A stretch of DNA of 64,000 bases from a bacterium. GTDB lineage: Bacteria; Deinococcota; Deinococci; Deinococcales; Deinococcaceae. Below are positions 8,453 to 59,692 of this stretch, piece by piece. Below the pieces are notes generated by a model. The model saw nothing but the letters and a program-made list of their open reading frames with translations, was not told the DNA's origin and searched no databases. The position numbers and the translations under genes were made by a program. The first letter of the stretch is position 1. Every line of letters starts with the position of its first letter. Where the stretch lies: contig JAJZIR010000010.1 of assembly GCA_021810505.1 (NCBI GenBank), forward strand, positions 1 to 64,000, written 5' to 3'.

Positions 8453-9643
8453 ATGAACGATTTCGCAGCGCAGCGCGTGGCCAGAGCTCTCCGGGCCTGC
8501 AGGTCTCTCGCAATCTGGCTACTGGGATTGGTTCTGGCCCTGCTCAGTTCCGGGCTGGCTGCTCGCAGCAAGCTTCCGGTACCCGCCGGTCTGGTCGGCA
8601 GCCTCTATCCTAGGGTCCTAGTGCTCCGCCACAGCGGCAGCGCCGACGGCCAGCTGGTGGCCAGCGTCACCAGCCTCTCCGGCAATCAGGGGTTGGGCCT
8701 GATCTACCACAGCAAAAGCGGTAAAAGCTTCCACCTGGTAGGAATTATCCGCGACCCGGCCGCCTCCCACAACTTCGGCCTGTGCTGTTCCACCCTCTAC
8801 CAGCTGCCTATCCGGATCGGCCGGTTGCCCGCCGGAACGCTACTCTGGGCGGCCTCGGTGGGACAGAACGTCTCGGTCCACCGGCGCATGTCCATCGACA
8901 TCTGGGAGAGCCAGGACCTAGGCAAACGCTGGAAGCCGCTGTCGCGCTGCGCCACCGCGGCGAATAGCCGGGGGATCTGGGAACCCCAGTTTTCGGTCGA
9001 CCGGGCCGGAGATCTGGTCTGTTACTTCTCCGACGAGACCTCCCCCCGGCACAGCCAGCGGATCGCCGAGGTGCGCTCGAAGGATGGGGTGCACTGGGGC
9101 AAAGTACACGCGGTGGTCGCGGCCAGCGCCTACGCCGACCGGCCAGGGATGCCAGTGGTCCTGCGGGTATCCAAGCGCCGCTGGCTGATGAGCTACGAGG
9201 TCTGCACGCCGTCCGGGATCCATGCCTGCGCCGCTCACCTGCGTAGCTCCCGCAATGGCTGGAACTGGGGCGATCCAAGGAATCTGGGAAAGATGGTGGT
9301 CAGCCGGAGCGGGCTGTACTTTAACCACGCCCCCACCCTCCAGGTGGTCCGCTCCGGGGGCAAGACCTTCCTCCTGCTGATCGGGGAAGTCCTCCACCAG
9401 CCGGACGGCCACTACGCCCCCGGCAACGGCAAGACCATCTTCGTAAACGCCCACGGCGGCCGGGGAACCTGGACTACCCTGGCCACGCCGGTCGCGGTGA
9501 CGGACGCCAGCAACGACCCCTGCACCAACTACTCCTCGGTGCTGGTGGCGCTGAGGGGGAGGCTCTTGGAGCTGGCCAGCGACTACGACCTGAACGGGGT
9601 CTGCAGGACCTACTTCGCCTCCGAACCGCTCCAGCTTCCCTGA
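8453..9643 (+). CDS. Secreted sialidase-fold glycosidase, GH93 (exo-arabinanase)-like
   Basis: 396 residues. A signal peptide/anchor covers ~17-37 (LAIWLLGLVLALLSSGLAA). The remainder looks like a six-bladed propeller with segments matching GH93: GIWEPQFSVDRAGDLVCYFSDE near 175-196, YADRPGMPVVLRV near 222-234 and WLMSYEVC near 240. In GH93 the RPGMP region and the WEP/SDE blades line the active site; the fold also resembles GH33/BNR enzymes. It probably releases arabino-oligosaccharides outside the cell for the nearby ABC importer. The ATG follows AAGGAGGGG. Its 3' end overlaps the convergent tsaE by 34 bases. Confidence 0.65.
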   Translation: MNDFAAQRVARALRACRSLAIWLLGLVLALLSSGLAARSKLPVPAGLVGSLYPRVLVLRHSGSADGQLVASVTSLSGNQGLGLIYHSKSGKSFHLVGIIRDPAASHNFGLCCSTLYQLPIRIGRLPAGTLLWAASVGQNVSVHRRMSIDIWESQDLGKRWKPLSRCATAANSRGIWEPQFSVDRAGDLVCYFSDETSPRHSQRIAEVRSKDGVHWGKVHAVVAASAYADRPGMPVVLRVSKRRWLMSYEVCTPSGIHACAAHLRSSRNGWNWGDPRNLGKMVVSRSGLYFNHAPTLQVVRSGGKTFLLLIGEVLHQPDGHYAPGNGKTIFVNAHGGRGTWTTLATPVAVTDASNDPCTNYSSVLVALRGRLLELASDYDLNGVCRTYFASEPLQLP

Positions 9644-10062
9644 GGGGGACCGGAAATCCAGCGGGCTGAGCGACCAGGCGGCGCGTAGCTCAGCCTGAGG
9701 ACCGCCGCCTGCGGGTAGCTGGGGTACAGCGCTTCCCCCCACTCGATCGCGGCCAGGCGGCAACTCGACAGCAGCTCTTCCAGGCCCAGCTCCAAGAGCG
9801 GCGCGGGGTCGGCGAGGCGGTACAGGTCGGCGTGCACCAAGGGACCCTGGGGGGTGGGGTAGCTCTGGATCAGGGTGAACGTGGGGCTGGAGACCCGCCC
9901 GGATACCCCCAGCCGCCGGGCCAGGCCGCGCACCAGAGTGGTCTTGCCGGTCCCCAGCTCGCCCTCGAGGAACAGCAAGCTACCCGGCGGTAGCCGCTCG
10001 GCCAAAGCGGCCCCGAAGGCGAGTTGCTCCCGTTCGCTGGGCAGAAAGACTGAGCCGGTCAC
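9610..10062 (-). CDS. tsaE: tRNA threonylcarbamoyladenosine synthesis ATPase TsaE
   Basis: 150 residues, normal for the family. The P-loop GELGTGKTT (34-42), SPTFTLIQSY and HADLYRL segments, and the AAIEWGE motif near 105 are the family hallmarks. TsaE works with TsaB and TsaD to transfer threonylcarbamoyl to A37 of ANN-reading tRNAs. The GTG start overlaps the stop of the upstream coiled-coil gene (GTGA), so it is translated as the last member of the roadblock operon. The C-terminal tail overlaps the convergent GH93 gene by 34 bases. Confidence 0.92.
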   Translation of the reverse strand: MTGSVFLPSEREQLAFGAALAERLPPGSLLFLEGELGTGKTTLVRGLARRLGVSGRVSSPTFTLIQSYPTPQGPLVHADLYRLADPAPLLELGLEELLSSCRLAAIEWGEALYPSYPQAAVLRLSYAPPGRSARWISGPPQGSWSGSEAK

Positions 10063-12602
10063 CCCGGCAAGGCTTCCAGGAAACGGCCCATCCAGCCCAG
10101 GACCTCTTCCAGCCGGGTCAGGTCGCTGAGCACCACCAGCAGCTGCCGATCCGCTCCCCCGCGCAGCAGCACCGTCCCGCGCTCGGCCTCCAGCTGCAGC
10201 GCGGGGGCGCTCTGCCCCAGGTCGGTCGACAGCTCCCGGGTGGCCGAGGCCAGCGCCCCTAGGGCGCCCTCCTCCTCGGCGGCGAGCTGACCAGCCAGCA
10301 GCCGACCGGGGGCCCTCAGGATCAGCCTGGCGATCTCGGGCGACCCAGCCCGCCGTTTGAGTTCAGCGACCTGCTCGGCGGGCAGCTCGGCCGCATCGAC
10401 GAACAGCTCGGCGGCGGGCCGGAGCGGCTCGGAGGCCAGCTGGTCGAACAGGCCCAACAGGCCCTCTAAGGCGCCGGGATCCTTGAGCGCCGAGAGGACG
10501 GCTTCGGCGGCTTGGCGCTCGCTCCTCAGCTCGGCCAAGGCCTGCTCGGCCCCCGCGATCATCTCGCGGTAGCGGAGCAGGCCGGCCGCGGACAGGCTGG
10601 CCAGCTGGCGGTGCTCGGCCAGGGGAGCCGCTGACCGCCTGAGCTGTTCGGCGGCCTCCCCTTCCGGCGAGGGTAGGGTGGCGATCTCGGCCAACAGGGC
10701 GTCAGCCCGGCGGTCCAGCTCGGCGCGCTCCTGCTCGCGGGCCAAGCGCAGAGCCTGCAGCCGCTGCCAGAACCCCTCCAGGTCGACCGGAATCCCGGTC
10801 TCCGCGGCAGAGCGGGCGCCATCCAAGTCGGCGATGAGGCTCTGCTGCTGCTCGGAGGCCGGCAACTCCCTGGCCGCTTGGACCAGGTCGCGCAGCTCGG
10901 ACAGCCAGGAGGTTCTCTGGCGCTCCCTGGCCACCTCCACCCGTTCGGCCAGCTGCAGGATGGAGAGAGCGCCGCCGTCCCCTTCGTCGGCGGCCAGCGC
11001 GCCCAGCTGCAGCGCCTCAGCGACCAGCTGGGCGCGCTGGCGCTGCAGCCGCTGCTCAAATCGCTCCAGGAAGGCCTGGGAGCGGTGCAGGGTCGGGGAG
11101 GGGTCCGCGCCCACTGGTTCCTGATCCTGAGCCAGTTCCCGGACCAGCTCGGCCCGCCACTCCGCCCGCTCGGTGGCCAGTTCAGGGAGCTCAGGGAGCT
11201 GATCCAGGGCAGCCACCATCCGCTGGAGCTGCTCCTGCCTGCCCAGGCGGTAGCGGGTCGCCCAGTCCTGGTAGTGGCGGACCAGCTCGGCAGCCAGGTC
11301 CTCGGCGACCTCGCCCGCCTCGGTGCGCTGGGCCAGCTGCAGGTGCAGCGCCCAGAAGTCGTCCGCCTCGGCCGGCAGGTGGTAGTCCCTGAGGATCTGG
11401 CCCTGGTGCTCCAGGGCCTGCAGCCGGCGAGCCTCTTCTTGGTGGCGGCGCTGCAGCTGGCGCTCCGCCGCCACCATCCAATCGCCCAGATGGGCCAGCT
11501 CGGCAGTAGCCAGAGCCTGGCCTTCCAGCATGCCGGCGATCACCTCGGCTTGCACCAGGCCTTCGGAGATGTCGACCGAGGAGGAAGCCAGGGCGGTCAG
11601 CTCTGCACGCCGCCCCTCCAGCTCCTTGACCTGGCGGGACAGCTCTTCCTTGCCGGCGGCCACGATCTGCTCCCTGAGAGCCTCCAGATCGATCTCGGCC
11701 AGCCGGCGCCCGGTCACCGCGGTGCGGGCCTGTGCGACCTCCTGGGCCAGATCCGAGCGGATGGCCAGGACCTGCGCGTGGTCGCGCTCGATCAGGTTCA
11801 GGCGGCGAGCCTGCTCGGCCAAGTCCAGCTCGAGGAGCCGCTGGCTCTGCTCCGGCTCCAGGCCTTCTGGAGCCACCTCGAGCTCGGCGGAGAGGTCGAG
11901 CTCGGCGGTGGCCGGTCCAGGGATACGCACCACTGAGGACTCGATCAGGCGGCGCAGCTCGGTGGCTAAGGCGTGAGCGCGCTCCAGCTCGGCGCTGGCC
12001 AGGGTACGCTGGCTCTGCGCCGCCTCCACTTGAGCCAGCAGGCTCTCCAGCCGCCGCACCCGCGGCCCACCGATCTGGGCCAACCTGGAAAACTCGGAGC
12101 GCAGCTGGGTGAGTTCCTGGGTCTGAGCGGCCAACAGTTCCTGCAGGCGGGCTTCCAAGGTGTCGCGGAGGGCGAACCCCTCCCTGAGCAGGGCGGGGGC
12201 TGCTTTCGAGGCAGCTTGCTCCTGCTGCAGGACAGTCAGGAGAGCCCGCAGCTTCTGGGTCTCCGGCCACTCGAAATAGAGGTTGTATTTCCTGGTGGTC
12301 TCCTCGAGCACCTTGAGCTGCTGACCCTGCCACTGCAGGGGGTCTTGGGCCTGAGGCTCCTCCGGTTCGGGGGGCAAGGTGGCCAGCAGCTGCTGAATTC
12401 TGGCCTTGGCGAAGGTGGCCGGCATGAACAGCTGCAGCTGCCGGTAGATGCTGCCCTTGAGGATCCGCTCGATCTCGCGGGACCCCAGGGTCTCCGGGGT
12501 CTTGCCAGCTTCCTTGGCCGCTTCGGCGAAGGCTTGGGCCAATTGCCTGGCTGGGATCAGGTCTCCCAGCATCTCGATGGTGGTATCGACAGGACTGGCC
12601 AA
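10059..12602 (-). CDS. 847-residue coiled-coil protein with a roadblock-like C-terminus; function unknown
   Basis: TTG start behind AAGGAG. Three parts are visible. Residues 14-77 align without gaps with residues 15-78 of the roadblock protein at 14392-15027 (shared pattern E..ILK..IY.QLQ..MP......I.QLL..LP). Residues ~90-740 are almost entirely Glu/Gln/Ala/Leu/Arg heptads, that is, long coiled coils with few breaks. The last ~70 residues (ALGALASATREL..., GTVLLRGGADRQLLVVLSDL, then a closing helix) have the helix-strand-helix rhythm of a degenerate roadblock domain. No signal peptide, membrane segment or true P-loop is present, so it is not an SMC ATPase. I infer a long cytoplasmic scaffold joined to the two upstream proteins. 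Confidence 0.6.
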   Translation of the reverse strand: MASPVDTTIEMLGDLIPARQLAQAFAEAAKEAGKTPETLGSREIERILKGSIYRQLQLFMPATFAKARIQQLLATLPPEPEEPQAQDPLQWQGQQLKVLEETTRKYNLYFEWPETQKLRALLTVLQQEQAASKAAPALLREGFALRDTLEARLQELLAAQTQELTQLRSEFSRLAQIGGPRVRRLESLLAQVEAAQSQRTLASAELERAHALATELRRLIESSVVRIPGPATAELDLSAELEVAPEGLEPEQSQRLLELDLAEQARRLNLIERDHAQVLAIRSDLAQEVAQARTAVTGRRLAEIDLEALREQIVAAGKEELSRQVKELEGRRAELTALASSSVDISEGLVQAEVIAGMLEGQALATAELAHLGDWMVAAERQLQRRHQEEARRLQALEHQGQILRDYHLPAEADDFWALHLQLAQRTEAGEVAEDLAAELVRHYQDWATRYRLGRQEQLQRMVAALDQLPELPELATERAEWRAELVRELAQDQEPVGADPSPTLHRSQAFLERFEQRLQRQRAQLVAEALQLGALAADEGDGGALSILQLAERVEVARERQRTSWLSELRDLVQAARELPASEQQQSLIADLDGARSAAETGIPVDLEGFWQRLQALRLAREQERAELDRRADALLAEIATLPSPEGEAAEQLRRSAAPLAEHRQLASLSAAGLLRYREMIAGAEQALAELRSERQAAEAVLSALKDPGALEGLLGLFDQLASEPLRPAAELFVDAAELPAEQVAELKRRAGSPEIARLILRAPGRLLAGQLAAEEEGALGALASATRELSTDLGQSAPALQLEAERGTVLLRGGADRQLLVVLSDLTRLEEVLGWMGRFLEALPG

Positions 12603-12646
12603 GGTATCTCCTTAAGGCGAGGGCCAGGAGGCCGCTGCGGGCGGGC

Positions 12647-14392
12647 TCAGAACTCCTCGTCCCACTCCACGGTGGTGGTCGAGTTCTCCGGCTTGTCCTC
12701 CGGATGCGCCGGGGTGGCTGGTTGCTGCTCAGCCGCCCCAGAGGCGCGCAAGAGGCCTAGCTGGAGACAGATCCCGCGGAATCCGGCGGCAGCCAGCAAG
12801 ACGGCGGCCAACATCAGCAGAGCCCAGAGGATCTGGATCAAGGGGTTCTCGAAGAGGCTGAACTCGGCCAGCAGGTTGAAAGCGCCCAGGCCGGTCAGGG
12901 CGGCCAAGAGGTTGCCGAGCATGGCCAGGCCGTCCAGGGCCAAGGGCAGGAGCAAGAAGACCATGGCCAGCCGGATCAGCTGCCAGGAGCGGTTACGGCC
13001 GCCGAAAGCCAGGCCCAGCAGGCGCAGCGGCCAGAAGATCAGCAGAGCGGCGATCAAGGTGACCAGCAGGCGAGGCCAACCCGACCAGATGCGGTCCAGC
13101 GTAGCCACCCAGGCCGGATCGTTGGAGAGCAGCGGCCGGTGGGTCAGAGCGCTGCGCCAGGCCGCCAACCGGGAGAGCAGCAAGGTCAGATCGGCTACCC
13201 GCAGGCCGGGAGCAGCGCTGAACTGCCGGAGTAGGGACTCCACGTGGCCGGTGTGCACCGGGTGCAGGCGACCAGCCCAGGGGGCCCACAGGTTGGAGAA
13301 CTCCAGCTGCAGGTTGCCCAAGACGGTCTGGGCCGCGGCGATGTGGCTGGCCTGGGCGAGCACGATGGCCCTAGCGACCTGCGCGTCGAGAAAATCCAGG
13401 GCCACCGGCAAGCTGGCCTGCCCGTGGGCCAAGAAAGCCGCCCCGAGCGAGCGAGCCTGGGCCCTGGGCAGGCCCAGAGCGGTCAGCTGCCGCACCATCG
13501 GGTCTCGGGGGGGCCTGGGGCGGCTCACCGCCGCTGCGGAACGGGTAGGGGTGAGCCGGCTCGGGGTAAATGGGGCGGTCCGGGAAAGCGCCACCAAGCC
13601 CGAACCTGGGGCGACCGCCGAGGGGGGGGCCGAAGCGATTCGGCTGCGGACAGATACCAGGTCCGCGCCGATGCGCTTCAGCAGGGCCGGCGCCGAAGCC
13701 GGCGGCTTGAGCTTGGCCAGATCGTCCAGAGCCTTCGAGAACAAGGCCGGCGAGAGCGGCGCGGTGACAGCGGCGTCCTCGATCAGCAGGTAGCCGTTGC
13801 TGGCGCGGGCCAAATCCAGGAAAGCCGCCGAGCGGGAGGCTGATTCGGCGGCCCGGACCTGCCTGGCCATCCTCCCGAGGATGGCTTCCTCGACGGCCCG
13901 CTCCAGCGCGGCGCTGTTTCCGGAATGCGCCGCTGCGAGGAGTTGGGAGCGCACCGCCGGTCCCAAACCGGCGGTCGCGGCCAGGGTATTGACCAGTGGG
14001 GCGGCGTTTTTACCCTGCTGGACTGCCGCGATCAGCTGGTCGTAGATCCCCTTGCGCAGGATCGCCCGGATCTGCCCCAGCTGGGCCTGCAGGTCGGTCG
14101 GGGTGAGGGCGATCGCCTGCGTCGCCGCGTCGAAGTCGCGCTGCAGGGCGCCTACCAACACCGACGAGGCCAGCTGGGGGGCGACCTCGCGGAACAGGTT
14201 TCTGGCCGCGTTCAGGTCGGCCAGGCTGGTGCTGGGCTGCGCAACCTGTTCGGCCTGGACGCTGGACAGCAGGGCGGCGATCTTGGGGTAGACCGCGATC
14301 AGCGCCGGCGCAGCCTGAGCCTGCACCGGAAACAGGGCGGCCAGCAGGCCACCTAAGGTGAGGAGCAGCGGGAAGGTGCGGTACCGGCGCAT
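12647..14392 (-). CDS. Membrane protein with a large extracytoplasmic domain, roadblock operon; function unknown
   Basis: 581 residues. A signal peptide (1-28, LLLTLGGLLAALFPVQAQA) is followed by ~400 helical Ala/Leu-rich residues, a Pro/Ser/Arg linker at ~253-300, three membrane segments (~440-462, 472-500, 517-540) and an acidic tail EDKPENSTTTVEWDEEF. With the signal peptide cleaved, the big domain would face the periplasm and the tail the cytoplasm. Residues 108-120 (IRAILRKGIYDQL) repeat the motif found at the N-termini of both partner proteins. The ATG overlaps the roadblock gene's stop (TGATG), implying tight coupling; the coiled-coil gene follows after 44 bases. I infer it anchors the complex to the envelope. 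Confidence 0.6.
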   Translation of the reverse strand: MRRYRTFPLLLTLGGLLAALFPVQAQAAPALIAVYPKIAALLSSVQAEQVAQPSTSLADLNAARNLFREVAPQLASSVLVGALQRDFDAATQAIALTPTDLQAQLGQIRAILRKGIYDQLIAAVQQGKNAAPLVNTLAATAGLGPAVRSQLLAAAHSGNSAALERAVEEAILGRMARQVRAAESASRSAAFLDLARASNGYLLIEDAAVTAPLSPALFSKALDDLAKLKPPASAPALLKRIGADLVSVRSRIASAPPSAVAPGSGLVALSRTAPFTPSRLTPTRSAAAVSRPRPPRDPMVRQLTALGLPRAQARSLGAAFLAHGQASLPVALDFLDAQVARAIVLAQASHIAAAQTVLGNLQLEFSNLWAPWAGRLHPVHTGHVESLLRQFSAAPGLRVADLTLLLSRLAAWRSALTHRPLLSNDPAWVATLDRIWSGWPRLLVTLIAALLIFWPLRLLGLAFGGRNRSWQLIRLAMVFLLLPLALDGLAMLGNLLAALTGLGAFNLLAEFSLFENPLIQILWALLMLAAVLLAAAGFRGICLQLGLLRASGAAEQQPATPAHPEDKPENSTTTVEWDEEF

Positions 14393-15027
14393 CAGGCCTC
14401 CTTGAGCTGAGTCATGCGGTTAAGTAAGCTTCCGGTATTGGCCGATGCGCTGGCCAGGACCGCCAGGACCTTGCGGTCCCGCAGGCGGCACAGGTAGATG
14501 GCCAACTCGCCCAAGTCCAGATAGACCAGGCGTAGGGGGTGGCGCCGTTCCAGCAAAGCCAGGGTCGCCACGGCCACCGCCGAAGGGTCCCCGGCCAGCG
14601 GGCCAGCGAGGCGGGCGTCGAGCAGCGCGCCGTCGGGTTGGCAGAGCAGGATGTGGGTGACCCCATCCTCCTTGGCCAGCTCGGCGATCCACTGCCGGGG
14701 GTCACGGCTGGCCGGCTGGGGAACAGGGGGCGCCGCTTCCGGGAGGGGGGCCTTAGACCTCTCGGCGGGCCCGCTCTCCGGCAGCCCGGGCGCCGGGAGC
14801 TGGTCCAGAAGCTGGCGGATGGACTGGCGGGCAACCGGAACCGGAACCACCTTCTGGAGGCGGCGGAAGATGCCCTGGCGCAAGACCTTGGCCATCTCCT
14901 CGGCGGTCACCCGGTCCGGGCCGAGGGCGGCTTCGGCCAGCGAGGCCTGCACCAGGCTCTCGGCGGCCCTGCGCGACATCAAGTCATCGAAACCGGAGCA
15001 GACTAGGTTGTACACCGCGTTGCCCAT
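14392..15027 (-). CDS. Roadblock/LC7-domain protein heading a three-protein system; function unknown
   Basis: 211 residues. Residues 15-78 are a helical domain shared with the 847-residue protein downstream (EEMAKVLRQGIFRRLQ core). A Pro-rich linker follows (~79-107). Residues ~112-205 fit the roadblock/LC7 fold: HILLCQPDGALLDARL, AVAVATLALLERR, LRLVYLDLGELAIYLCRL, KVLAVLASASANTGSLLNRM. Bacterial roadblock proteins usually regulate a Ras-like GTPase such as MglA, but none is encoded here. The frame is open to 15180; ATG 15027 is chosen because a -10 box ends 11 bases before it and the homologous domain starts there. It has no Shine-Dalgarno sequence, fitting near-leaderless translation. Confidence 0.65.
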   Translation of the reverse strand: MGNAVYNLVCSGFDDLMSRRAAESLVQASLAEAALGPDRVTAEEMAKVLRQGIFRRLQKVVPVPVARQSIRQLLDQLPAPGLPESGPAERSKAPLPEAAPPVPQPASRDPRQWIAELAKEDGVTHILLCQPDGALLDARLAGPLAGDPSAVAVATLALLERRHPLRLVYLDLGELAIYLCRLRDRKVLAVLASASANTGSLLNRMTQLKEA

Positions 15028-15038
15028 GTTGCGCCCGC

Positions 15039-15044
15039 AGTATA
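15039..15044 (-). promoter_or_regulatory. Extended -10 box of the roadblock operon
   Basis: Minus strand TGCTATACT: TATACT at 15039-15044 with the TG extension directly upstream. It ends 11 bases before ATG 15027, so the predicted 5' leader is about 5 bases. No convincing -35 is seen, as is common with extended -10 promoters. Confidence 0.55.
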
Positions 15045-43281: not shown

Positions 43282-44439
43282 ATGCCCAAGCTGCGCCACC
43301 GACTCCTCGCCACCTGCTTTCTGTTCGCCCTGATACCTCTGGGAGCCCGGGCCGGTGGGATCAACCTGCGGATCCTGGTGGCAGAAGGTCCGGCCCTGTC
43401 GGTCGACTTGCCGAGCAGCTTTTCCATGTTCAGCGGCTCCGGCCAGCCCCTGGCTGACGGGACGGCCGGGGGCTGGGAAGTTTCCAGAACCCCCGGCGGG
43501 ACGCTGTCGCTCTCAGGGCAAGGCAGCGGGCAGAGCACCCTGTTGCTGATTCCTCAGGCTGGGGTGTTCCAGGTCCAGGGCCGGTCCTACCGCGGGGACC
43601 TGATCCTCCGGGTCTCCGAGGGAGCTGCTCAGGCCATCGATGTGGTGCCGATGTCGGAGTACCTGGACTCGGTGGTCCCGGCCGAGATGCCCTCCGAGTG
43701 GCCCATGGCCGCCTTGGAGGCGCAGGCGATCGTGGCCCGCACCTACGCGATCCGGCACCTCCACCCGGCGGGCGCCTACGACCTCTGCGCGACGACCGAT
43801 TGCCAGCTCTACCCAGGCCTCGGCAACGAGACGAGCCGCACCGATCGAGCGGTCGCCGCGACGGCAGGGGAAATCGTCGCCTGGCAGGGGCGGCCCGCCG
43901 ATACCTTCTTCTCCAGCAACGACGGCGGCTACACCGCCAGCAGCCAGGAAGTCTGGGGGCACTCTCTCCCCTACCTGACCTCCAGACCGGACCCCTTCTC
44001 GGCTGGACCGGTCTGGTCGGTATCGGTACCCCTGGCGCAGGTTGCAGACCTGGCCCGTGCAGACGGGATCTCGGTCGGGATCCTGCAGTCGGTCACCGTC
44101 CTCAGGAGCAGCAGTTCCGGGCGCCCCACCGCGCTGCTGTTTCTGGGTAGCCAGGGCCAATCCGAGCTATCCGGCCCTGCGGCCGACCGCTTCGTCCGGC
44201 AACTCAGCGGCAAGTCTTCCAGAGCCAACCTGGCGGTCACCGGGAACACCCTGACAATCCGAGGAGAAGGCAATGGGCACGGGGTGGGGATGTCCCAGTG
44301 GGGCGCCAAGCAGATGGCTGCCCAAGGCTACTCGGCCGATCAGATCTTGGGCTTCTACTTTCCAGGGGCCGAGCTGGGCAAGTATCAGGTCGCCGGAAGC
44401 CCGCCGGGGGCGGCCAAGCAAGTCGCCGGAGGCCCGTGA
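43282..44439 (+). CDS. SpoIID/LytB-domain protein (peptidoglycan enzyme or amidase enhancer)
   Basis: 385 residues. Signal peptide 1-24 (LLATCFLFALIPLGARA). The SpoIID domain covers ~110-370: EYLDSVVPAEMPSEWPMAALEAQAIVARTYA, DCQLYPGLGNETSRTDRAVAATAGEIV, FFSSNDGGYT, and GEGNGHGVGMSQWGAKQMAAQGYSADQIL near the end. SpoIID cleaves denuded glycan strands, whereas LytB enhances an amidase; Glu in VPAEMPSEW is the candidate catalytic residue. The stop overlaps the LptD-like gene (GTGA). Confidence 0.88.
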   Translation: MPKLRHRLLATCFLFALIPLGARAGGINLRILVAEGPALSVDLPSSFSMFSGSGQPLADGTAGGWEVSRTPGGTLSLSGQGSGQSTLLLIPQAGVFQVQGRSYRGDLILRVSEGAAQAIDVVPMSEYLDSVVPAEMPSEWPMAALEAQAIVARTYAIRHLHPAGAYDLCATTDCQLYPGLGNETSRTDRAVAATAGEIVAWQGRPADTFFSSNDGGYTASSQEVWGHSLPYLTSRPDPFSAGPVWSVSVPLAQVADLARADGISVGILQSVTVLRSSSSGRPTALLFLGSQGQSELSGPAADRFVRQLSGKSSRANLAVTGNTLTIRGEGNGHGVGMSQWGAKQMAAQGYSADQILGFYFPGAELGKYQVAGSPPGAAKQVAGGP

Positions 44440-47213
44440 GCGGGGGGTGGCGCTCCCCGCTCTGGCTGGTGGTTGGGATCGTCCTGATCGGGGGGTTGGG
44501 GAAGGCCCTGGCCACCACCATCACCATCGTCAAAGCGGATACCCTGCAGCTGCGCAGGGTGAAGCTGCCGGACGGCCACAGCCAGAACCTGATCGTGATC
44601 ACCGGCCACCCCGCCGAGATCCGCTTCGGGGGCAACACCGTGATCGCGCCGGAAGTGGATTTCAACGAGACCACCCGGCAGCTCACCCTGGTCGGACCCG
44701 GCGAATTCATCGGCCAGGCCAGCAGCTCGGTCACCGCCGGCCTGAGCTCGCTGGGGACGACCACGCCTTCCGCGACGACGGCGACGGCGAACAGCCCAGC
44801 CAACATTCAGGAGAAAACCGTCCTGCGCGGTCACCACTTGGTCCTGAACCTCAACACCATGGCCCTGCGGGGCAACGATGTGTTCATCTCGTCAGGGTCG
44901 CTGGAGATCCGGGGGGCGAGCGCCGAGCAGCTCCCCGGGCAGATCCAGATATCCGGCGGCTTCTTCACCCCCTGTGGCCGCTGCGGTCAGACCCCCGACG
45001 ACTACGCCTTTCAGGCGGACCGGATCACCCTCTATCCGGGCAACCGGCTGATCGGCTACGACACCACCGTGCTGCTGGCCGGACAGCCGGTCGCCTACCT
45101 CCCAGTGGTGGTGTTGCTGCTCAACAACCCGGCCAGGCAGCCCAAGCTGACCCTGTCCAACGATCCGGTCGACGGCTTCACCGTCGCCTTGGATCTCCCC
45201 TTCGTCAGCGGAAACGCCACTTACGGGTTCACCCTGCTGCGCTACTACCAGAACCGCAGCCCTTCGCTGGGCTTGGGGATCCAGCTGAACTCCGACCAGG
45301 TACTCGGCCAGCCGGGAAGCTTGTCCCTCTACGCCTTAGCGACGCCGTTACCGGTGGGGAGCAGCGGCTACAGCCTGGACTACGCGCTGAGCCTGAGCGG
45401 GGAGACGCCGCTGCTGGGGACGACGGTCAGCTTCCAGCTCAGCGCCGACCGCAACGACACCCAAACCGCCGCCACCCTGAGCTCCACCGAGCCCAACCAG
45501 GTAGGAGCGCTGAATCCCAGCACCGCCGGGCTGACCCAACTCAACTTCAGCGCCTCGGGATCCTGGCCCGGCCTGAGCGCCCAGCTCAACTACGTGGGCG
45601 AGATCAATACCAATCCCGCCCTGGTCCCCCCTCCGGAAGTGCTCAAGCTTCCCGAGCTGCAGCTGAGCACCCAGACCTTCACCTTCGGCCACCTGAGCGC
45701 CCAGTTCGGTGCGACCATCGGCGACTACGTCGCCCCGGTCAATCCCCTGGACCGGCAGGCCCGGCTGCTGGGGAGCACCGTTTCGGACGGCCGGCTGCTG
45801 GTCAGCGATCAGATCAGCGATTCCTCGGTACCGTGGAAGGGCGGGCTGTTCAGTTTGAGCAACAACTTTACCGGCCAGTACTACACCGACGGGCAGCGGG
45901 CGGTCAACTGGACCATCCAGGCCTCGGCCAGCCACACCTTCAGCATCGGCAATACCATCTCGCTGAGCTACGCCTTCACCCGGATCCAGGGCCAGAGCCC
46001 CTTTGCCTTCGACAGCCTGATCGGTCAGAGCAACCAGCAAGTCCTCACCTTCGGTGTCACCTTGCGGCCGCTGCCTTCGCTGAACCTCTCGGCCACCCTA
46101 CCCGACACCCTGCAGGGGCAGACCAGCCCGGCGGTCTTCGGCGCCCAGTTCGCCAGCGGCTCTCTGAGCGCCAGTTTCAACCTGCAGCAAGACATCGCCA
46201 CCAACAGCCTAGGCGGCTGGACCCTCAGCGCCGCCAGCAGCGGGCAGGGACCCAGCTTCAGCCTCAGCACCGGCTTCAGCGGTCAGACCCGGCTCTACAA
46301 TCCCCTCTCGCTCACCTTGGGCGACTCGGACTACCACCACAACACCAACGTCAGCCTGGGCCTCCTCTACGACCTCAACGCCGAGACCCTCACCAGCCTC
46401 AGCGGTACCCTCAACGCCACCACCCAGACATCCAGCGGGGCAGCCGGCTGGGGCCTCAGCCTGCAGGAGAGCTACAGCTTCGGCGCCGCCCAACTGAGCG
46501 GAACCTGGACGGTCAGCCACAGCGGCCTCAGCTTCGGGATCAGCCATACCCTGACCTTAGGGGCGGTAACCGGCAGCTTCCCGGCCAGCTCCTCGCTGAC
46601 CTTCTCGCTGGCCGACGGCCTGACCGGGTCACCGCTGAGCTGGAGCGTGCAGTACGGGGGGGCTTACGATCTGCAGCAGGGGGCCTGGATCAATCCGACG
46701 CTCAGCGCCAGCCTCCAAGCTACCCGCAGCGCCCAGCAGCTCAGCGCCCAAGTGGTCTTCAACGCCCCAGGACCGAGCCAACCCAGCTTCGAGCTGGAGA
46801 CCACCCAAGTCAGCGCCCAGTGGGACCTGACCCCTTGGCTGGCCCTCCAGGGCAGCGCCTCCTTCCAGCGCGGCAGCCTCGGCACACCCGACACCCTGAG
46901 CTTCAGCCCTTTCGGGATCACTTTGGCCCTAGGGAAAGACGCCAACGGCCTGCCCGGAGCCTACGTGACCACGCTGCTGCAGCAGAACTTCTTCTTCCAG
47001 GCCGGTCAGGACTTTCAGCAGCAGGTCCTGCCGATCTTCTTCGTGACTATCAACCAGTGCTGCTGGGCGCTGCAGGTCGAGGTCAACCCGCTCTCCAATT
47101 TCGCTCAAGTCTCCTTCGTCCTGCCGAACGGCCAGCTGCAGCCCATCGCCGGTTTCGGGCAGGGAGCGGGCGGCCTGCAGTTCCCAGGTCTCTCTGGCCT
47201 ACAATCTCCCTGA
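44436..47213 (+). CDS. LptD-like outer-membrane beta-barrel protein
   Basis: 925 residues. Signal peptide ~9-35 (WLVVGIVLIGGLGKALA). An OstA-type periplasmic domain covers ~36-190 with the landmark GGFFTPCGRCGQTPDDYAF and YPGNRLIGYDTTVLLAGQPVAYLPV, as in LptD where TTC...W..A and the PvfYlP segment precede the barrel. The remaining ~700 residues alternate short Ser/Leu/Thr-rich amphipathic strands, a large barrel. GTG 44436 overlaps the SpoIID stop; the frame is open to 44298 but within that gene. Deinococcota generally lack classic LPS, so the cargo is unclear. Confidence 0.75.
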   Translation: MSGGWRSPLWLVVGIVLIGGLGKALATTITIVKADTLQLRRVKLPDGHSQNLIVITGHPAEIRFGGNTVIAPEVDFNETTRQLTLVGPGEFIGQASSSVTAGLSSLGTTTPSATTATANSPANIQEKTVLRGHHLVLNLNTMALRGNDVFISSGSLEIRGASAEQLPGQIQISGGFFTPCGRCGQTPDDYAFQADRITLYPGNRLIGYDTTVLLAGQPVAYLPVVVLLLNNPARQPKLTLSNDPVDGFTVALDLPFVSGNATYGFTLLRYYQNRSPSLGLGIQLNSDQVLGQPGSLSLYALATPLPVGSSGYSLDYALSLSGETPLLGTTVSFQLSADRNDTQTAATLSSTEPNQVGALNPSTAGLTQLNFSASGSWPGLSAQLNYVGEINTNPALVPPPEVLKLPELQLSTQTFTFGHLSAQFGATIGDYVAPVNPLDRQARLLGSTVSDGRLLVSDQISDSSVPWKGGLFSLSNNFTGQYYTDGQRAVNWTIQASASHTFSIGNTISLSYAFTRIQGQSPFAFDSLIGQSNQQVLTFGVTLRPLPSLNLSATLPDTLQGQTSPAVFGAQFASGSLSASFNLQQDIATNSLGGWTLSAASSGQGPSFSLSTGFSGQTRLYNPLSLTLGDSDYHHNTNVSLGLLYDLNAETLTSLSGTLNATTQTSSGAAGWGLSLQESYSFGAAQLSGTWTVSHSGLSFGISHTLTLGAVTGSFPASSSLTFSLADGLTGSPLSWSVQYGGAYDLQQGAWINPTLSASLQATRSAQQLSAQVVFNAPGPSQPSFELETTQVSAQWDLTPWLALQGSASFQRGSLGTPDTLSFSPFGITLALGKDANGLPGAYVTTLLQQNFFFQAGQDFQQQVLPIFFVTINQCCWALQVEVNPLSNFAQVSFVLPNGQLQPIAGFGQGAGGLQFPGLSGLQSP

Positions 47214-47233
47214 GGGAGGTCTCGAGAAGTCAG

Positions 47234-48370
47234 ATGCGCACGCACCCCTCCACACCCCGTCCCCTGCGCTGGGCCCTTCTGGCCTTGGCCAGCGCGCTGT
47301 GCGCCTGGTCGCTGGTCGGCTGCACCGGGACGGTGAGCTCATCTCTGCCTATCGACATCGTGGTCAGCGACCAGGGCAGCAGCGGAGGACCCCAGCTGCA
47401 GACCATCTCGACCCAGGCGATCGACCCATCCTCCAGCAGCTACGACCCCTCGGCTGCCATCCAAACCCTTCCTCTGAACCAACCGCCCGTCGGGCTGGCC
47501 AACGCGCCGGACGGCCAGACGCTCTACGTCGGCTTCCCGGACACCATCGCGCTGTACAACGACGCGCTGCAACAGACTGGAAGCATCTCGCTGCCCAGCG
47601 GCTGCAGCCTGCAGAGCTTTTCCATCAACGGCGCAGGCACCTGGCTGGCTGGCCTGCTGCAGTGCTCCGGCCAGCCGCAGCTCTGGGTCACCTCCCTGAG
47701 CAACCCGGCGACGCTCTACCAGCAGGGCTCCCCCAACGCCTTCAGCTTCTCGGTGTCCAGCGGCGGCGGTCCCGGCGCTCTGCCCTACGCCATCGGGGAC
47801 AGCGCGCTGTACTTCGTGACCGGGAGCCCAGCCGGCGGCGGGACCACCCTATTCCAGACCGTCCAGCTCCCGATCAGCAACAACAGCTCCCCGCTGGTCA
47901 ACTCGAACGGGACAGCGCTGACCTCGGCAGCCAACGACCTGAGCAGCTACCAGGGGCAGGGAGTGGTGGCCACAGACAGCGCGGTGAGCGCGGTGAGCGC
48001 CGGCCAGCTGGGCTCCTCCCTGATCCCGAGCGGCGCGCAGCGGATCTTCCGGGGCTACGGGATCTCGGTGCTGGCCGCCTTCTCCGTCTCCAGCACTACC
48101 GGCGTAGCCCAGCTCAGTTTCCTGTCCCCCAACGGCAGCGCCACGCTGTCCAGCAACAACTTAGGGACCAGCCCGCTTCCCGGCTCCATCGCGGCGATGA
48201 CCTTCACCCCGGATGGCTACGCCTGGTTCTTCGACCCGCAGGGCAACCTCTGGCGGGTCGACGTCTCGGTCCTGCATGGGAGCGTGCTCTCGACGGCGGT
48301 GAGGACCACCTCACTCCCCATCTACGGGGTGAACGGCTTGGCTTGGCTCACCGAGAGCGCGGCGCCCTAG
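47234..48370 (+). CDS. Lipoprotein with beta-propeller-like repeats; function unknown
   Basis: 378 residues. Signal peptide with lipobox LVGC, so it is lipid-anchored. The mature protein is Ser/Gly/Gln-rich with segments such as PVGLANAPDGQTLYVGF, AAMTFTPDGYAWFFDPQGNLWRV and YGVNGLAWL that resemble propeller blades. No catalytic motif is seen. ATG 47234 follows GGGAGG; TACAAT at 47200-47205 inside the end of the barrel gene may be its own promoter. Its position suggests an outer-membrane partner of the barrel, which is inference only. Confidence 0.65.
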   Translation: MRTHPSTPRPLRWALLALASALCAWSLVGCTGTVSSSLPIDIVVSDQGSSGGPQLQTISTQAIDPSSSSYDPSAAIQTLPLNQPPVGLANAPDGQTLYVGFPDTIALYNDALQQTGSISLPSGCSLQSFSINGAGTWLAGLLQCSGQPQLWVTSLSNPATLYQQGSPNAFSFSVSSGGGPGALPYAIGDSALYFVTGSPAGGGTTLFQTVQLPISNNSSPLVNSNGTALTSAANDLSSYQGQGVVATDSAVSAVSAGQLGSSLIPSGAQRIFRGYGISVLAAFSVSSTTGVAQLSFLSPNGSATLSSNNLGTSPLPGSIAAMTFTPDGYAWFFDPQGNLWRVDVSVLHGSVLSTAVRTTSLPIYGVNGLAWLTESAAP

Positions 48371-53792: not shown

Positions 53793-55532
<1,740 letters not shown>

Positions 55533-55548
55533 ATCTCCCCCTCTAGCT

Positions 55549-55872
55549 TCACAGCTTGATGTCGAAGCCGATCGTCTCGCGGACGAGCCGGCCCAGGTAA
55601 CCGCGCAGGTCCTGGCTGGCCGAGAAGCTCTGCGCAACGCCGCTGATCGGGACCAGGATGGGTAGCGTCCGGCCGCGCATGACCCGCTCCGAGGCGCGCA
55701 CCGGATCCTCCAAGATGCCCTGGTCGACGGCGATCAGCCCGTAACGGTTGCTGCGGATCAGCTCCGCGAGCTGGTCACCGGCCTGGTCCTGCGAAGATTC
55801 GACCACCGAGGCGCCGGCCAACCGAAATCCGGTGGCCGATTCTGAGCTACAGAGGATCACGATCCTATCCAC
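55549..55872 (-). CDS. atpF: V/A-type ATP synthase subunit F
   Basis: 107 residues. Rossmann-like start [36 protein letters not shown], and LPILVPISG. It binds the D shaft and controls rotation. GTG start overlaps the atpC stop by 8 bases; atpA follows after 16. Confidence 0.92.
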
Positions 55873-56845
55873 GCAGCACCTCCGCCAGCTGCTCCTGGCT
55901 CAGCTGGTAGAACTTTCCCCGAGCGATCAGCCGCAATCTGGCCACCTGGATCTCCAAGCGCAGCAAGTAGTCGAGAGCGATCCCTGGACCGTCCGAGTCC
56001 GAGGAAGCCACCTGGGCAGCTTCCTCGGCCAGGCGCTGGCGGGCCATCGCCTGAACCTGGACCAAGGTCGCCCCTTCCGGCAGATCTAGGTCGGCGGGCA
56101 AAGCGGCCAAGTCGCCAGCACAGAGCCTGAGGAAGTCGGCCTCCCCCAGGCGCCCGCCGGGCAGGTAGAACCGGGGCTCCGGGGGCTGGCCGCGCAGCTC
56201 GGTGGCGGTGATCAGGTTGCGCAGATCGATCTCCAGGCGCCAGAAGCGGGCCATGGTCTGCCCGCGCACCAGGCGGCGCACCTGCTGGTAGTACCCCTGG
56301 TCGAGCGCGACCTCCAGGGCCAAGAGCTCGCCGGAGCCGATCTGGGCCCGCACCGCCTCGGCGAAGACCTTGAGCAAGGGGTGGCGGCTCAGGGAGAGCG
56401 TCTGCAGAGCGCCATCCAGATCGCCGCCGGCTGCGGCCTCGAGCAGGGAAAAGCGCAGGGTTCCCAAGGGAACCAGCTGAGAGCGAATCTCTTGGGCCGG
56501 CCGGCCGGCGAGCAGTCCGCGGGCCAGGGTCTTCAAGTTGAGCAGGTCCCAGCGCGCCACCAGGGCGGCCAACTGCTCCCTGGCGTCTCCCTGGGATAGC
56601 CCCAACACCTTGGCGCCCAACCGCTGGAGGTGGCGCGAGAGCGCCTGATCCAGGTCACCCAGAGCGGCCGCAGGAGCGGTAGCTCGGGTGAGGTCGGCAG
56701 CCAAATCGGTCTCGGTCAGCAGGCGCAGGAATTCGACGTAGTTGGCTGCCGCGACCAGGTCCTGCTCCTGGCGCTCGGTGAGCAACCGGGTCCGCATGAC
56801 CCGTATCCGGGCGTTGATGTAGCCGAAGTCATCGGGCAAGGGCAC
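55865..56845 (-). CDS. atpC: V/A-type ATP synthase subunit C
   Basis: 326 residues, all helical, threefold pseudo-repeat. YINARIRVMRTRLLTERQEQDLVAA at the start and ALDYLLRLEIQVARLRLIARGK near the end are typical of the socket joining shaft D to the proteolipid ring. GTG start 5 bases after atpE. Confidence 0.93.
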   Translation of the reverse strand: MPLPDDFGYINARIRVMRTRLLTERQEQDLVAAANYVEFLRLLTETDLAADLTRATAPAAALGDLDQALSRHLQRLGAKVLGLSQGDAREQLAALVARWDLLNLKTLARGLLAGRPAQEIRSQLVPLGTLRFSLLEAAAGGDLDGALQTLSLSRHPLLKVFAEAVRAQIGSGELLALEVALDQGYYQQVRRLVRGQTMARFWRLEIDLRNLITATELRGQPPEPRFYLPGGRLGEADFLRLCAGDLAALPADLDLPEGATLVQVQAMARQRLAEEAAQVASSDSDGPGIALDYLLRLEIQVARLRLIARGKFYQLSQEQLAEVLRG

Positions 56846-56850
56846 ACCGC

Positions 56851-57426
56851 CTAGGGTTGGCGCAAGATGGCCAGGAGCTGGGGAGCCACCTCCTCCCAGA
56901 TGCGGCCCAGCCGCTCCGGGAGGGTGTTGCTGACGCTGCTGTGGCTGCTGGTGGATTCCAGGCGGATGCCGGCTCGGAGTCCGGGGTGGGGGCGCAGGGA
57001 TAGCTCTGGCTTGAGCTTCTCGAGGACTGGCTCAGCGATGGGGAGTTCCTCGGGGGCCAGGTAACCCAGGTCAGCGGTCGGAAGCGCCTCTAGAGCTTCC
57101 CGGATCAGGCGGCTCAGGACCTCTTGGTACTCCGGTCGGCTGGGGAGAGCCGCCAGAACTTCCTCGGCTCTGCGCCGGACCTCCTGGAGGTCGGCATCGA
57201 TCGCCGCGATCCGGCGGGCCGCTGCCGCCAGCTCAGCTGCGCTGCGCACTCTGGCCAGGTGGGCCTGCAGAGCAGACTCCAGGCGCGCCTTGCGCCCTTC
57301 CAAAAGCTCCGCGATCTCCTGATCGGTCTGGCGCTTCAGCTCAGCGACCTGCTGCTCGGCGGAGCGCAGGGTCTCAGCGATCTCCCCCTCGATTTCCCCA
57401 GCGAGCAAGCTCCGCAGATCCGACAT
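56851..57426 (-). CDS. atpE: V/A-type ATP synthase subunit E (peripheral stalk)
   Basis: 191 residues. Long N-terminal coiled coil (LRSLLAGEIEGEIAETLRSAEQQVAELKRQ...) then a globular end with RLESTSSHSSVSNTLPERLGRIWEEVAPQL. Pairs with subunit G. Its start touches the atpK stop. Confidence 0.93.
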   Translation of the reverse strand: MSDLRSLLAGEIEGEIAETLRSAEQQVAELKRQTDQEIAELLEGRKARLESALQAHLARVRSAAELAAAARRIAAIDADLQEVRRRAEEVLAALPSRPEYQEVLSRLIREALEALPTADLGYLAPEELPIAEPVLEKLKPELSLRPHPGLRAGIRLESTSSHSSVSNTLPERLGRIWEEVAPQLLAILRQP

Positions 57427-57725
57427 CAGCTCATCTTGCCCAGCAGGATGATCGCGATCACGAAACCGAAGATGACCAGAGTCTCCGGGATCACGAACCA
57501 GAGCAGCATCAGACCGAACTGCTCACGGTTTTCGGCGGTCACCCCAGCAGCAGCGGCGCCGATCCTTCCCTGCGCCAGACCGGTTCCGACCGCACCCAGA
57601 CCGATGGCCAGACCCATGCCGACGCCGATGAGCCCGTTACCTGAGGAGGACCCTCCCGCAGCCGACTGAGCCAGGGCGAAGGAGGCCGAGATCAGGGCGA
57701 CCAGCAGTGCAACGTATTTCTTCAT
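57426..57725 (-). CDS. atpK: V/A-type ATP synthase proteolipid subunit K
   Basis: 99 residues. A cleavable-looking start (MKKYVALLVALISASFALAQ) precedes two membrane helices joined by the AENREQF loop. Ion-carrying Glu81 in FVIPETLVIFGF. No Na+-site Gln pattern is obvious, so protons are presumed. The ATG overlaps the end of atpI by 4 bases. Confidence 0.93.
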   Translation of the reverse strand: MKKYVALLVALISASFALAQSAAGGSSSGNGLIGVGMGLAIGLGAVGTGLAQGRIGAAAAGVTAENREQFGLMLLWFVIPETLVIFGFVIAIILLGKMS

Positions 57726-59692
57726 AAACCCTCCGGGTGTTCGGTGCGGGCGAGCCGCCGGAACGGAGCGTAGCGAGGACCGGTGTTGTCGTAAAACCCG
57801 GTCGGGCTCAGGAACTCGACGTAATGGAGACGGAGTGGCTGCAAGACGTGGCCGATAATGGTCAGGGTCAGCGCGGCAGCCTGGACGATAAAAGCGATCA
57901 CGATACCCAAAATGGCGCCGATCAGGCCCCATTGCTGGTAGATCCCCCAGCCCAGATCCGTTGCCAGCTTGGCCAAGATAGCCGATGCCAGGCCCACGGC
58001 GAACAAGCGGACGTAGGAGATGATGTACCCTCCGTTGGAGATCAGCTCGAAGACCATCATGGCCGCCCGGGTAGCGGCCAGGCCGATCACGAACACCAGA
58101 AACCCCAGCAGCATCACGTCGTTGGTCAGCGGCGTCGCCGCGTGGGTCAAGAAGCCATAGGCGTAGAGGATCAGGCCGACCAGGCCCCCGAACATCCCGG
58201 CGGCCTCAAAGAAATGCTGGCGCTCCCCGTGCTTGAGGGAGAGCTGGGCCCGCAGACCCCAGGCCCACAGTACCTGGACGATGCCGAAAGCGATGCTGAT
58301 CAGGACGGCGGTGGTGATCAGGTTGCTCTGCAGCCTGGGGAAGAGAATCGGGATCAGTCCCGGATGGCCCGGCAGGTGAAAGATCCGCAGGTGCTCGCCG
58401 AGCGAGCCGAAGATCTCACCGGTCAGGCAGCCGAACACCAGGGTCCAGACGCTCATGGTGGTCAGGATATAGGCGACCTGACCGAGTAAGCCGGGTCCGA
58501 GGTCGATCCCCATGAAACCGAGGTCCAGCCCCTTGCCGGAGCGCGACCGGGCCCTGAGGGAGAGGGCCAACCAGAGGAACAGCAGGCCGAAGCCGATGTC
58601 GGCGATGACGAAGCCGAAGAAGAAGGGGAAGAAAGCGGCGATGATCCAGGTCGGATCGAAGGTGTCGTAACGGGGTGGAGCCGAGATGGCCAGCAGGAGC
58701 TCAAAGTTACGGGCGTAGCGGTTATTGGTCAGCTTGACCGGGATCTCCTTGGCAGCGTGGAGATCGGGGTCGGCCAACCTGAGATCGATCAGGTCTTCCA
58801 TGGGGCGCAACACCTCGCGCAGCCTGGCCTCCGAGTTGGCCGGCAGGTAGCCGCGCAGGAACAGGCTGTAGCGGCCCATACCGACCTGCGACTGGACGTC
58901 GTAGATGGCGACCGCGTCGCGGAGGGCCGCTTGCAGGGACAGCAGCTGGCCGCTGTACAGCTTGGCCAAGCGCCTGAGCTCGGACTCCAAAGCCTGCAGG
59001 CGGCTGAACCCGTTGGCCTGCAGTTCGCTGAAACGCTTGGCCGCCTCGCTCCAGCCGAGCTCCTCCAGGGAAGTAGGCAGGCGGAGCTCGCCGGTCCTCA
59101 GCTGCAGGAGCACCCCTCTGGCCGCCTCGCGGTCGGCCCGCATGGTGAGGATCAGGGCCAGCTGGCGATCGGCCAAAGGCGCCTGCGCGACCAGGTAGCG
59201 GCTCGGCAAGGCTTTGGCGAGCCCCGCTTCCAGCGCCGACAGGGCCGCCGCGTCGTCGACGACTACCGCCAGAGCTGCCAGCCTAGGGCTGCGGTCTAGG
59301 CCGTGGGACAAGGCCGCGATCACCCCGGCGGCCTTGCCGTAGCTGGTGGCAGCCTCCAGGTCGGAGCGCAGCGCCGAACGCTCCGCGGATACCCGCTGGA
59401 CCGCCTGCGCCGCTTCCTCGACGTAGTCCTCCCAGCGCTCTGGGGTGGGCGGCTCCTCGCTGGCGGTGGGCAGCGGGGCGAGCTCTCCCAAGGTGGAATC
59501 GACCCGGGCCAGCAACCGCTCCAGCCTCCGCTTCCGCTCGGCGTCCTCCGGATCCAGCACCCCCGAGCGCACCGGACCTTCCGCGGGGATGGGGCGCAAA
59601 TGGACCACACCGGCCTCTTGGAGGGCGGCGATCAGGCGCTTGGCGTCGCGCCGGCGGCCAGCGATCACCACCTCGCGCATCGCCGTGATCAC
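57722..59692 (-). CDS. atpI: V/A-type ATP synthase subunit I (a-type, membrane)
   Basis: 656 residues. Cytoplasmic N-terminal half with coiled coils (MITAMREVVIAGRRRDAKRLIAALQEAGVVHL start), then seven or eight membrane helices from ~345 (PTWIIAAFFPFFFGFVIADIGFGLLFL). The essential Arg helix is SNGGYIISYVRLFAVGLASAILA near 560-583. GTG 59692 is preferred behind GGGGGG; ATG 59680 is the alternative. Confidence 0.95.
   Translation of the reverse strand: MITAMREVVIAGRRRDAKRLIAALQEAGVVHLRPIPAEGPVRSGVLDPEDAERKRRLERLLARVDSTLGELAPLPTASEEPPTPERWEDYVEEAAQAVQRVSAERSALRSDLEAATSYGKAAGVIAALSHGLDRSPRLAALAVVVDDAAALSALEAGLAKALPSRYLVAQAPLADRQLALILTMRADREAARGVLLQLRTGELRLPTSLEELGWSEAAKRFSELQANGFSRLQALESELRRLAKLYSGQLLSLQAALRDAVAIYDVQSQVGMGRYSLFLRGYLPANSEARLREVLRPMEDLIDLRLADPDLHAAKEIPVKLTNNRYARNFELLLAISAPPRYDTFDPTWIIAAFFPFFFGFVIADIGFGLLFLWLALSLRARSRSGKGLDLGFMGIDLGPGLLGQVAYILTTMSVWTLVFGCLTGEIFGSLGEHLRIFHLPGHPGLIPILFPRLQSNLITTAVLISIAFGIVQVLWAWGLRAQLSLKHGERQHFFEAAGMFGGLVGLILYAYGFLTHAATPLTNDVMLLGFLVFVIGLAATRAAMMVFELISNGGYIISYVRLFAVGLASAILAKLATDLGWGIYQQWGLIGAILGIVIAFIVQAAALTLTIIGHVLQPLRLHYVEFLSPTGFYDNTGPRYAPFRRLARTEHPEGL

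Follow-up and report, generated by a model that had tools for sequence, protein, structure and literature searches.

A four-gene operon with two roadblock proteins and a membrane protein

The stretch of DNA that we analyzed (the window) is 64,000 nucleotides from a member of the Deinococcaceae (positions 1 to 64,000 of contig JAJZIR010000010.1, GenBank assembly GCA_021810505.1). The original prediction, which was made from the DNA alone, placed four genes at 9610–15044. All four are there, on the minus strand: three genes that we will call A, B, and C, followed by tsaE (Table 1). The genes overlap or nearly overlap, as had been predicted. A's stop codon and B's start codon share one nucleotide (TGATG), C and tsaE overlap by 4 nucleotides, and a gap of 44 nucleotides separates B from C. 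C begins with TTG, and there is an AAGGAG 6 nucleotides upstream of this start codon. The single promoter that had been described is another matter: we found no sigma-70 consensus site upstream of A, just a TATACT without a -35 partner. By open reading frames and Pfam, the operon encodes neither a GTPase nor a histidine kinase.

Table 1. Features of the operon (positions in the window).
Feature	Position	Strand	Description or basis
Possible -10 element (TATACT)	15039..15044	-	11 nt upstream of A's ATG; read from sequence
Gene A	14392..15027	-	211 aa: N-terminal 4-helix domain, linker, C-terminal roadblock domain
A, N-terminal helical domain (residues 1–85)	14773..15027	-	Homologous to C residues 1–85 (hhalign prob 99, E = 7e-18)
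A, roadblock domain (residues 108–211)	14395..14706	-	AF2, α-β-β-α-β-β-β-α; Foldseek prob 1.00
Gene B	12647..14392	-	581 aa: signal-like segment, exported domain, three membrane segments, cytoplasmic tail
B, predicted cytoplasmic tail (residues 537–581), ending TTVEWDEEF	12650..12784	-	Alignment of B homologues, tail tally
WDEEF-stop codons, end of B	12647..12664	-	DNA pattern search across 111 genomes
Gene C	10059..12602	-	847 aa: N-terminal domain, helical array, C-terminal roadblock
C, N-terminal helical domain (residues 1–85)	12348..12602	-	Same domain as A's (hhalign, AF2)
C, best conserved part (residues 88–235)	11898..12341	-	Alignment of C homologues
C, predicted helical array (residues 88–722)	10437..12341	-	AF2: 23 predicted helices, longest 41 residues
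C, roadblock domain (residues 742–847)	10062..10379	-	AF2; Foldseek prob 1.00; hhalign to A
tsaE (t6A synthesis ATPase)	9610..10062	-	Last gene of the operon, as predicted; PF02367, E = 1.3e-33

Elsewhere in the window, an open reading frame of 1365 amino acids (44273–48370) has no match in Pfam and lies directly after a gene with a SpoIID domain (43282–44439). Genes for a V/A-type ATP synthase, including the catalytic A subunit and the I subunit, are at 53793–59692.

Proteins A and C have the same two end domains

Proteins with the roadblock fold usually regulate small GTPases. When we compared A, B, and C to Pfam and NCBIfam, nothing scored above the cutoffs, and only A had a weak match to the roadblock family (PF03259; E = 0.13 and 12.4 bits, versus a gathering cutoff of 23). 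Among 22 homologues of A, PF03259 matches 5 with E < 0.1 (the best is 4.7e-4); for C, there was no match.

Structure prediction was clearer. The AlphaFold2 model of A (46 homologues; pLDDT 88) has four N-terminal helices (residues 4–15, 19–32, 42–60, and 63–76), a loose linker, and then the full set of roadblock elements. In a Foldseek search of the PDB, this model matched roadblock proteins with probability 1.00 and E values down to 2e-7. The top match was LAMTOR2/p14, and roadblock proteins from Streptomyces and MglB from Thermus (1j3w) were also matched. Similarly, a sequence profile of A matched a Robl_LC7 chain in the PDB (7f8m, E = 1.4e-5). So, the roadblock-domain protein that had been predicted at 14392–15027 does have this fold. 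A does not belong to the MglB family, and comparison to the MglB profile (prob 68, E = 5e-5) indicates that A's relation to MglB is distant only.

C was also predicted to end in a roadblock-like fold, and this was confirmed by its model (all 847 residues, 22 homologues; mean pLDDT 80). The model begins with four helices like those of A and ends with roadblock helices at residues 742–752, 775–795, and 828–844 and strands at 757–764, 767–770, 802–806, 809–815, and 820–825. When we compared the whole model to the PDB, the best matches were roadblock domains, again with probability 1.00 but with modest E values (from 0.009); LAMTOR5/HBXIP was among them. A search of a library of viral structures found nothing. 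By hhalign, the roadblock domain of C aligns with that of A (prob 95, E = 2.6e-8); it has no significant match to the MglB profile (prob 4). Since both end domains appear to be homologous, A looks like C without its middle.

The end domains of C are separated by about 640 residues, which had been described as a very long coiled coil. The single-chain predictions do not support this. In the AlphaFold2 model, these residues form helices of 4–41 residues that are joined by loops, and heptad periodicity was found in patches only. Going by the model, “helical array” is a better term for the middle of C than “847-residue coiled coil.” (The spacing of the helices suggested spectrin-like repeats, but there were none among the best 50 Foldseek matches.) The best conserved part of C is at the start of the array. 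It includes the conserved stretches LYFEWPEVQKLR, GGPKVRRLE, and ERARxLAxELRK and four near-invariant basic residues (R119, R184, R208, and R217).

We noticed a third protein with an N-terminal helical domain of this type, in another genome (791 amino acids; L218:1647-4022, minus strand, on contig G001:C1). There, after this domain come an acidic linker and then a long C-terminal part that looks helical and in which no roadblock domain could be recognized. The N-terminal domain of these three proteins looks like a reusable assembly module.

Protein B ends with a near-invariant peptide

B has a signal-like segment (residues 7–25), an exported part (26–434), and three membrane segments (435–464, 475–493, and 518–536). 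By this predicted topology, the last 45 residues, with a net charge of -5, are cytoplasmic. This agrees with the earlier description of B as a membrane protein with a large exported domain and an acidic cytoplasmic tail. B has no match in Pfam or NCBIfam, and its profile has only chance-level matches to sequences in the PDB. We also considered that B's exported domain might be homologous to the N-terminal domain of A, but hhalign gave a probability of just 2, so we rejected this.

The end of the tail is near-invariant across homologues of B, and TIVEWDEEF is the commonest form. To quantify this, we searched 111 genomes for DNA that encodes WDEEF followed by a stop codon. In 81 of the 111 genomes, there was exactly one match, and every match was at the end of B. 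The reversed control had 0 matches. The remaining genomes have variants such as WDEDF, WDDDY, WEEEF, or WDEEL, or they have broken contigs, or the tail is absent. We found no paper on the WDEEF peptide or on the A-B-C trio.

The trio is conserved across Deinococcota

The 111 genomes are from the phylum Deinococcota, and no Deinococcaceae were recognized among them. The counts were 107 genomes for B, 105 for C, 100 for A, and 99 for MglA. For B and C, this is far more than expected by chance, and the trio is conserved across the phylum. We also used patterns from the alignment of B to scan the species genomes of GTDB R220. This identified 56 loci, all of them from Thermus, Meiothermus, Calidithermus, Thermaceae, Trueperaceae, or metagenome-assembled Deinococcales.

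Under the original prediction, the homologues should not be unlinked in related genomes. A and B are a stable pair: A is directly before B in all 46 of the GTDB loci whose contigs extend far enough. C is less so. C follows B in 27 loci, and most families have an A-B-C(-tsaE) operon, but C has moved elsewhere in the genomes of Thermus and Meiothermus, which for C counts against the original prediction. In Thermus, the neighbors of A-B and of C give no hint as to function.

Because tsaE closes the operon, we considered that the trio might be a partner of TsaE in the t6A modification of tRNA. tsaE follows C in 17 of the GTDB loci and in families f1, f2, and f3, as this would predict. However, tsaE is detached from the trio in Thermus, in Meiothermus, in Calidithermus, and in loci from family f5, and it stays in place in genomes that have lost A and C (see below). 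Also, the trio is confined to one phylum, while tsaE is, to our knowledge, nearly universal among bacteria. We consider this explanation to be very improbable.

The genome that contains the window also encodes two small roadblock proteins, of 115 and 119 amino acids, directly after ybaB and recR (L196:2752-4740, contig G000:C12). Pairs of small roadblock genes are also present in many relatives. In a genome from family f5, ybaB is about 1.9 kb downstream of C (L088:2-277, contig G019:C33).

C is lost together with MglA

The original prediction emphasized that no GTPase accompanies these genes. That is true of the operon, but not of the genome, which has a canonical mglA that overlaps mglB on another contig (L195:4833-6208, contig G000:C26). 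This MglA is 69–82% identical to those of relatives.

Six genomes that are 89–98% complete lack C (G012, G026, G041, G052, G060, and G106), and all six lack MglA as well. Another six genomes have no match to MglA, but these are at most 85% complete. The presence of C and of MglA agrees in every genome that is at least 89% complete, and among those genomes we saw none with the trio but without MglA. Furthermore, a scan for roadblock domains in five of the six genomes without C found none at all. In a tree of IF-2, G041 is apart from the clade of G012, G026, and G052, and a single event is seen in 4% of bootstrap trees, so C and MglA were lost together at least twice.

This pattern bears on the idea of a structural tether that maintains cell shape or envelope integrity without any GTPase. 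In that scheme, A and C would pair through their roadblock domains, with no other partners, and would thereby tie the cytoplasmic helical protein to the envelope. Roadblock domains commonly dimerize, as is known from structures of MglB and Ragulator. A and C have the same two end domains, which makes mixed dimers plausible, and the operon lacks a GTPase. However, C disappears exactly where MglA does, which argues that the system is not independent of a GTPase. And in one genus (g8, represented by G008 and G110), A has been lost but C, MglA, and B's tail (as WDEDF) remain. A is therefore not essential to the system, and the tail does not need A. Given these losses, we think that a GTPase-independent tether is unlikely. 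The better supported link between membrane and cytoplasm is the near-invariant C-terminal peptide of B, not the pairing of roadblock domains, because in genus g8 it is A that is gone while C and the tail stay.

(In both genomes of genus g8, at loci L077 and L213, the loss of A is accompanied by a shorter B and by lower scores for MglA than in other genomes. From matches to PF00025, we had thought that G008 might lack MglA, but a specific MglA profile finds it there.)

What might the tail bind? In G012, G026, and G060, the genes for A, C, and MglA are gone, and B is joined directly to tsaE. In these genomes, B ends shortly after its last membrane segment, and WDEEF is absent. The tree of B indicates that the tail was lost in one event. 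C, MglA, and MglB disappeared along with the tail, and its partner is probably one of them. As these were lost together, their distribution does not distinguish them, and because G008 has MglA, it gives no reason to prefer C to MglA as the partner of the tail. We favor C because it adjoins B in most families and because near-invariant basic residues are frequent in its best conserved stretch.

Alternatively, the joint losses might reflect a reduced lifestyle, with the trio serving some other function at the envelope, such as attachment to the outer layers or a surface machine, that was shed along with the control of motility. Most of the genomes without MglA are small (1.8–2.5 Mb, with one of 3.2 Mb), so the losses could be part of a general reduction, and G041 and G052 also lack a full-length PilT. 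Also, B's exported domain survives on its own in three genomes, so B has some function without C and MglA. On the other hand, full PilT genes are still present in G012, G026, and G060, so this was not simply the loss of pili. The pattern in those genomes is selective: they lost A, C, MglA, and just the tail of B. A separate function for the trio also does not fit with the lack of any genome, among those that are at least 89% complete, that has the trio but not MglA. Overall, we judge that reduction is an improbable explanation for these losses.

Proposed role of the trio

We propose that A, B, and C are a roadblock scaffold that is anchored in the inner membrane and acts in concert with the polarity GTPase of Deinococcota, MglA/MglB. 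We would put the chance that this is correct at about even. B would span the membrane, with its large, helical exported domain outside and its tail displayed to the cytoplasm, where the tail would dock C. C would be a helical spacer, with the assembly domain that it has in common with A at one end and a roadblock domain at the other. A, with the same two end domains, would be a shortened C. Through their roadblock domains, C and A would bind each other, MglB, or MglA. This would position MglA's activity at a specific part of the envelope, most likely the piliated pole. What we observed is the gene structure, the folds of A and of both ends of C, the uniqueness and conservation of the tail, and the co-distribution with MglA; the contacts between the proteins, their placement at a pole, and any connection to type IV pili are inferred.

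A more specific version of this proposal is that the trio is an undescribed, phylum-wide polarity landmark: B's WDEEF peptide would recruit the roadblock-tipped C, which would be the envelope receptor for MglA/MglB and would set the piliated pole. This is possible, but we hold it tentatively and lean against it.

Our proposal retains much of the original idea of a roadblock tether at the envelope: a scaffold that is tied to the envelope fits with the folds of A and C, with B's membrane anchor, and with the conservation of the trio. The rod gives way to an array of helices, and the independence from GTPases conflicts with the joint losses of C and MglA. Several findings count against a scaffold for MglA/MglB: A, B, and C are encoded apart from mglAB; most genomes without MglA are small, so that the joint losses may be part of a general reduction; the tail was lost in a single event; C's roadblock domain has no significant profile match to MglB; and genus g8 does without A.

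Thermus-type bacteria position their type IV pili at a single pole, and MglA and MglB are implicated in this. The genes A, B, and C and the last five residues of B are candidate parts for this control of the cell pole. According to a statement in PMC12024867, which cites Salzer 2015, deletions of mglA or mglB in Thermus affect the localization of pili to one pole. The mechanism of the polar bias in Thermus is said to be unclear (PMC12393216), and the mechanism of unipolarity in T. thermophilus is stated as not known (PMC7519303).

Comparison to known systems

If our proposal is correct, then bacteria have a membrane-tethered roadblock scaffold whose design is comparable to that of Ragulator, and two of the proteins that it is made from (B and C) have no match in Pfam. 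Either way, this is a clear, undescribed, and phylum-wide module with a short peptide. Ragulator is a membrane-tethered roadblock scaffold for small GTPases, and its components LAMTOR2/p14 and LAMTOR5/HBXIP are the ones that Foldseek matched to A and C, respectively. However, the likeness is of fold only, with about 20% identity. Also, Ragulator's membrane anchor is the lipidated p18 peptide, while the anchor here would be a polytopic membrane protein.

In the conservons of Streptomyces (CvnA-D), too, one operon encodes a roadblock protein along with a protein that is associated with the membrane. Furthermore, roadblock structures from Streptomyces match A, both by Foldseek (3kye) and by sequence profile (cvnB5 chain 3leq). 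But conservon operons include a GTPase (CvnD) and a histidine kinase (PMC4316618), and this operon has neither.

SgmX, an effector of MglA in Myxococcus, is a large, helical cytoplasmic protein that links MglA to polar pili (PMC7519303), and we propose a comparable position for C. SgmX has TPR repeats and binds MglA-GTP directly, whereas C has no TPR match and has a roadblock domain at its end.

The closest precedent for the tail is in the MglA/MglB/MglC/RomR module of Myxococcus xanthus, which controls polar type IV pili (PMC12719032, PMC9481161). There too, a roadblock protein (MglC) is encoded apart from the GTPase. The C-terminal helix of RomR, which is acidic and has an essential tryptophan (Trp394), docks on the roadblock dimer of MglC, and MglC binds MglB as well (PMC12719032). 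B's tail, with its tryptophan and acidic residues, may dock on C in an analogous way. There are differences: RomR is a response regulator in the cytoplasm, whereas B is integral to the membrane. A and C have an additional helical domain at the N terminus, and C also has a 640-residue helical array and a roadblock domain without a sequence match to MglB.
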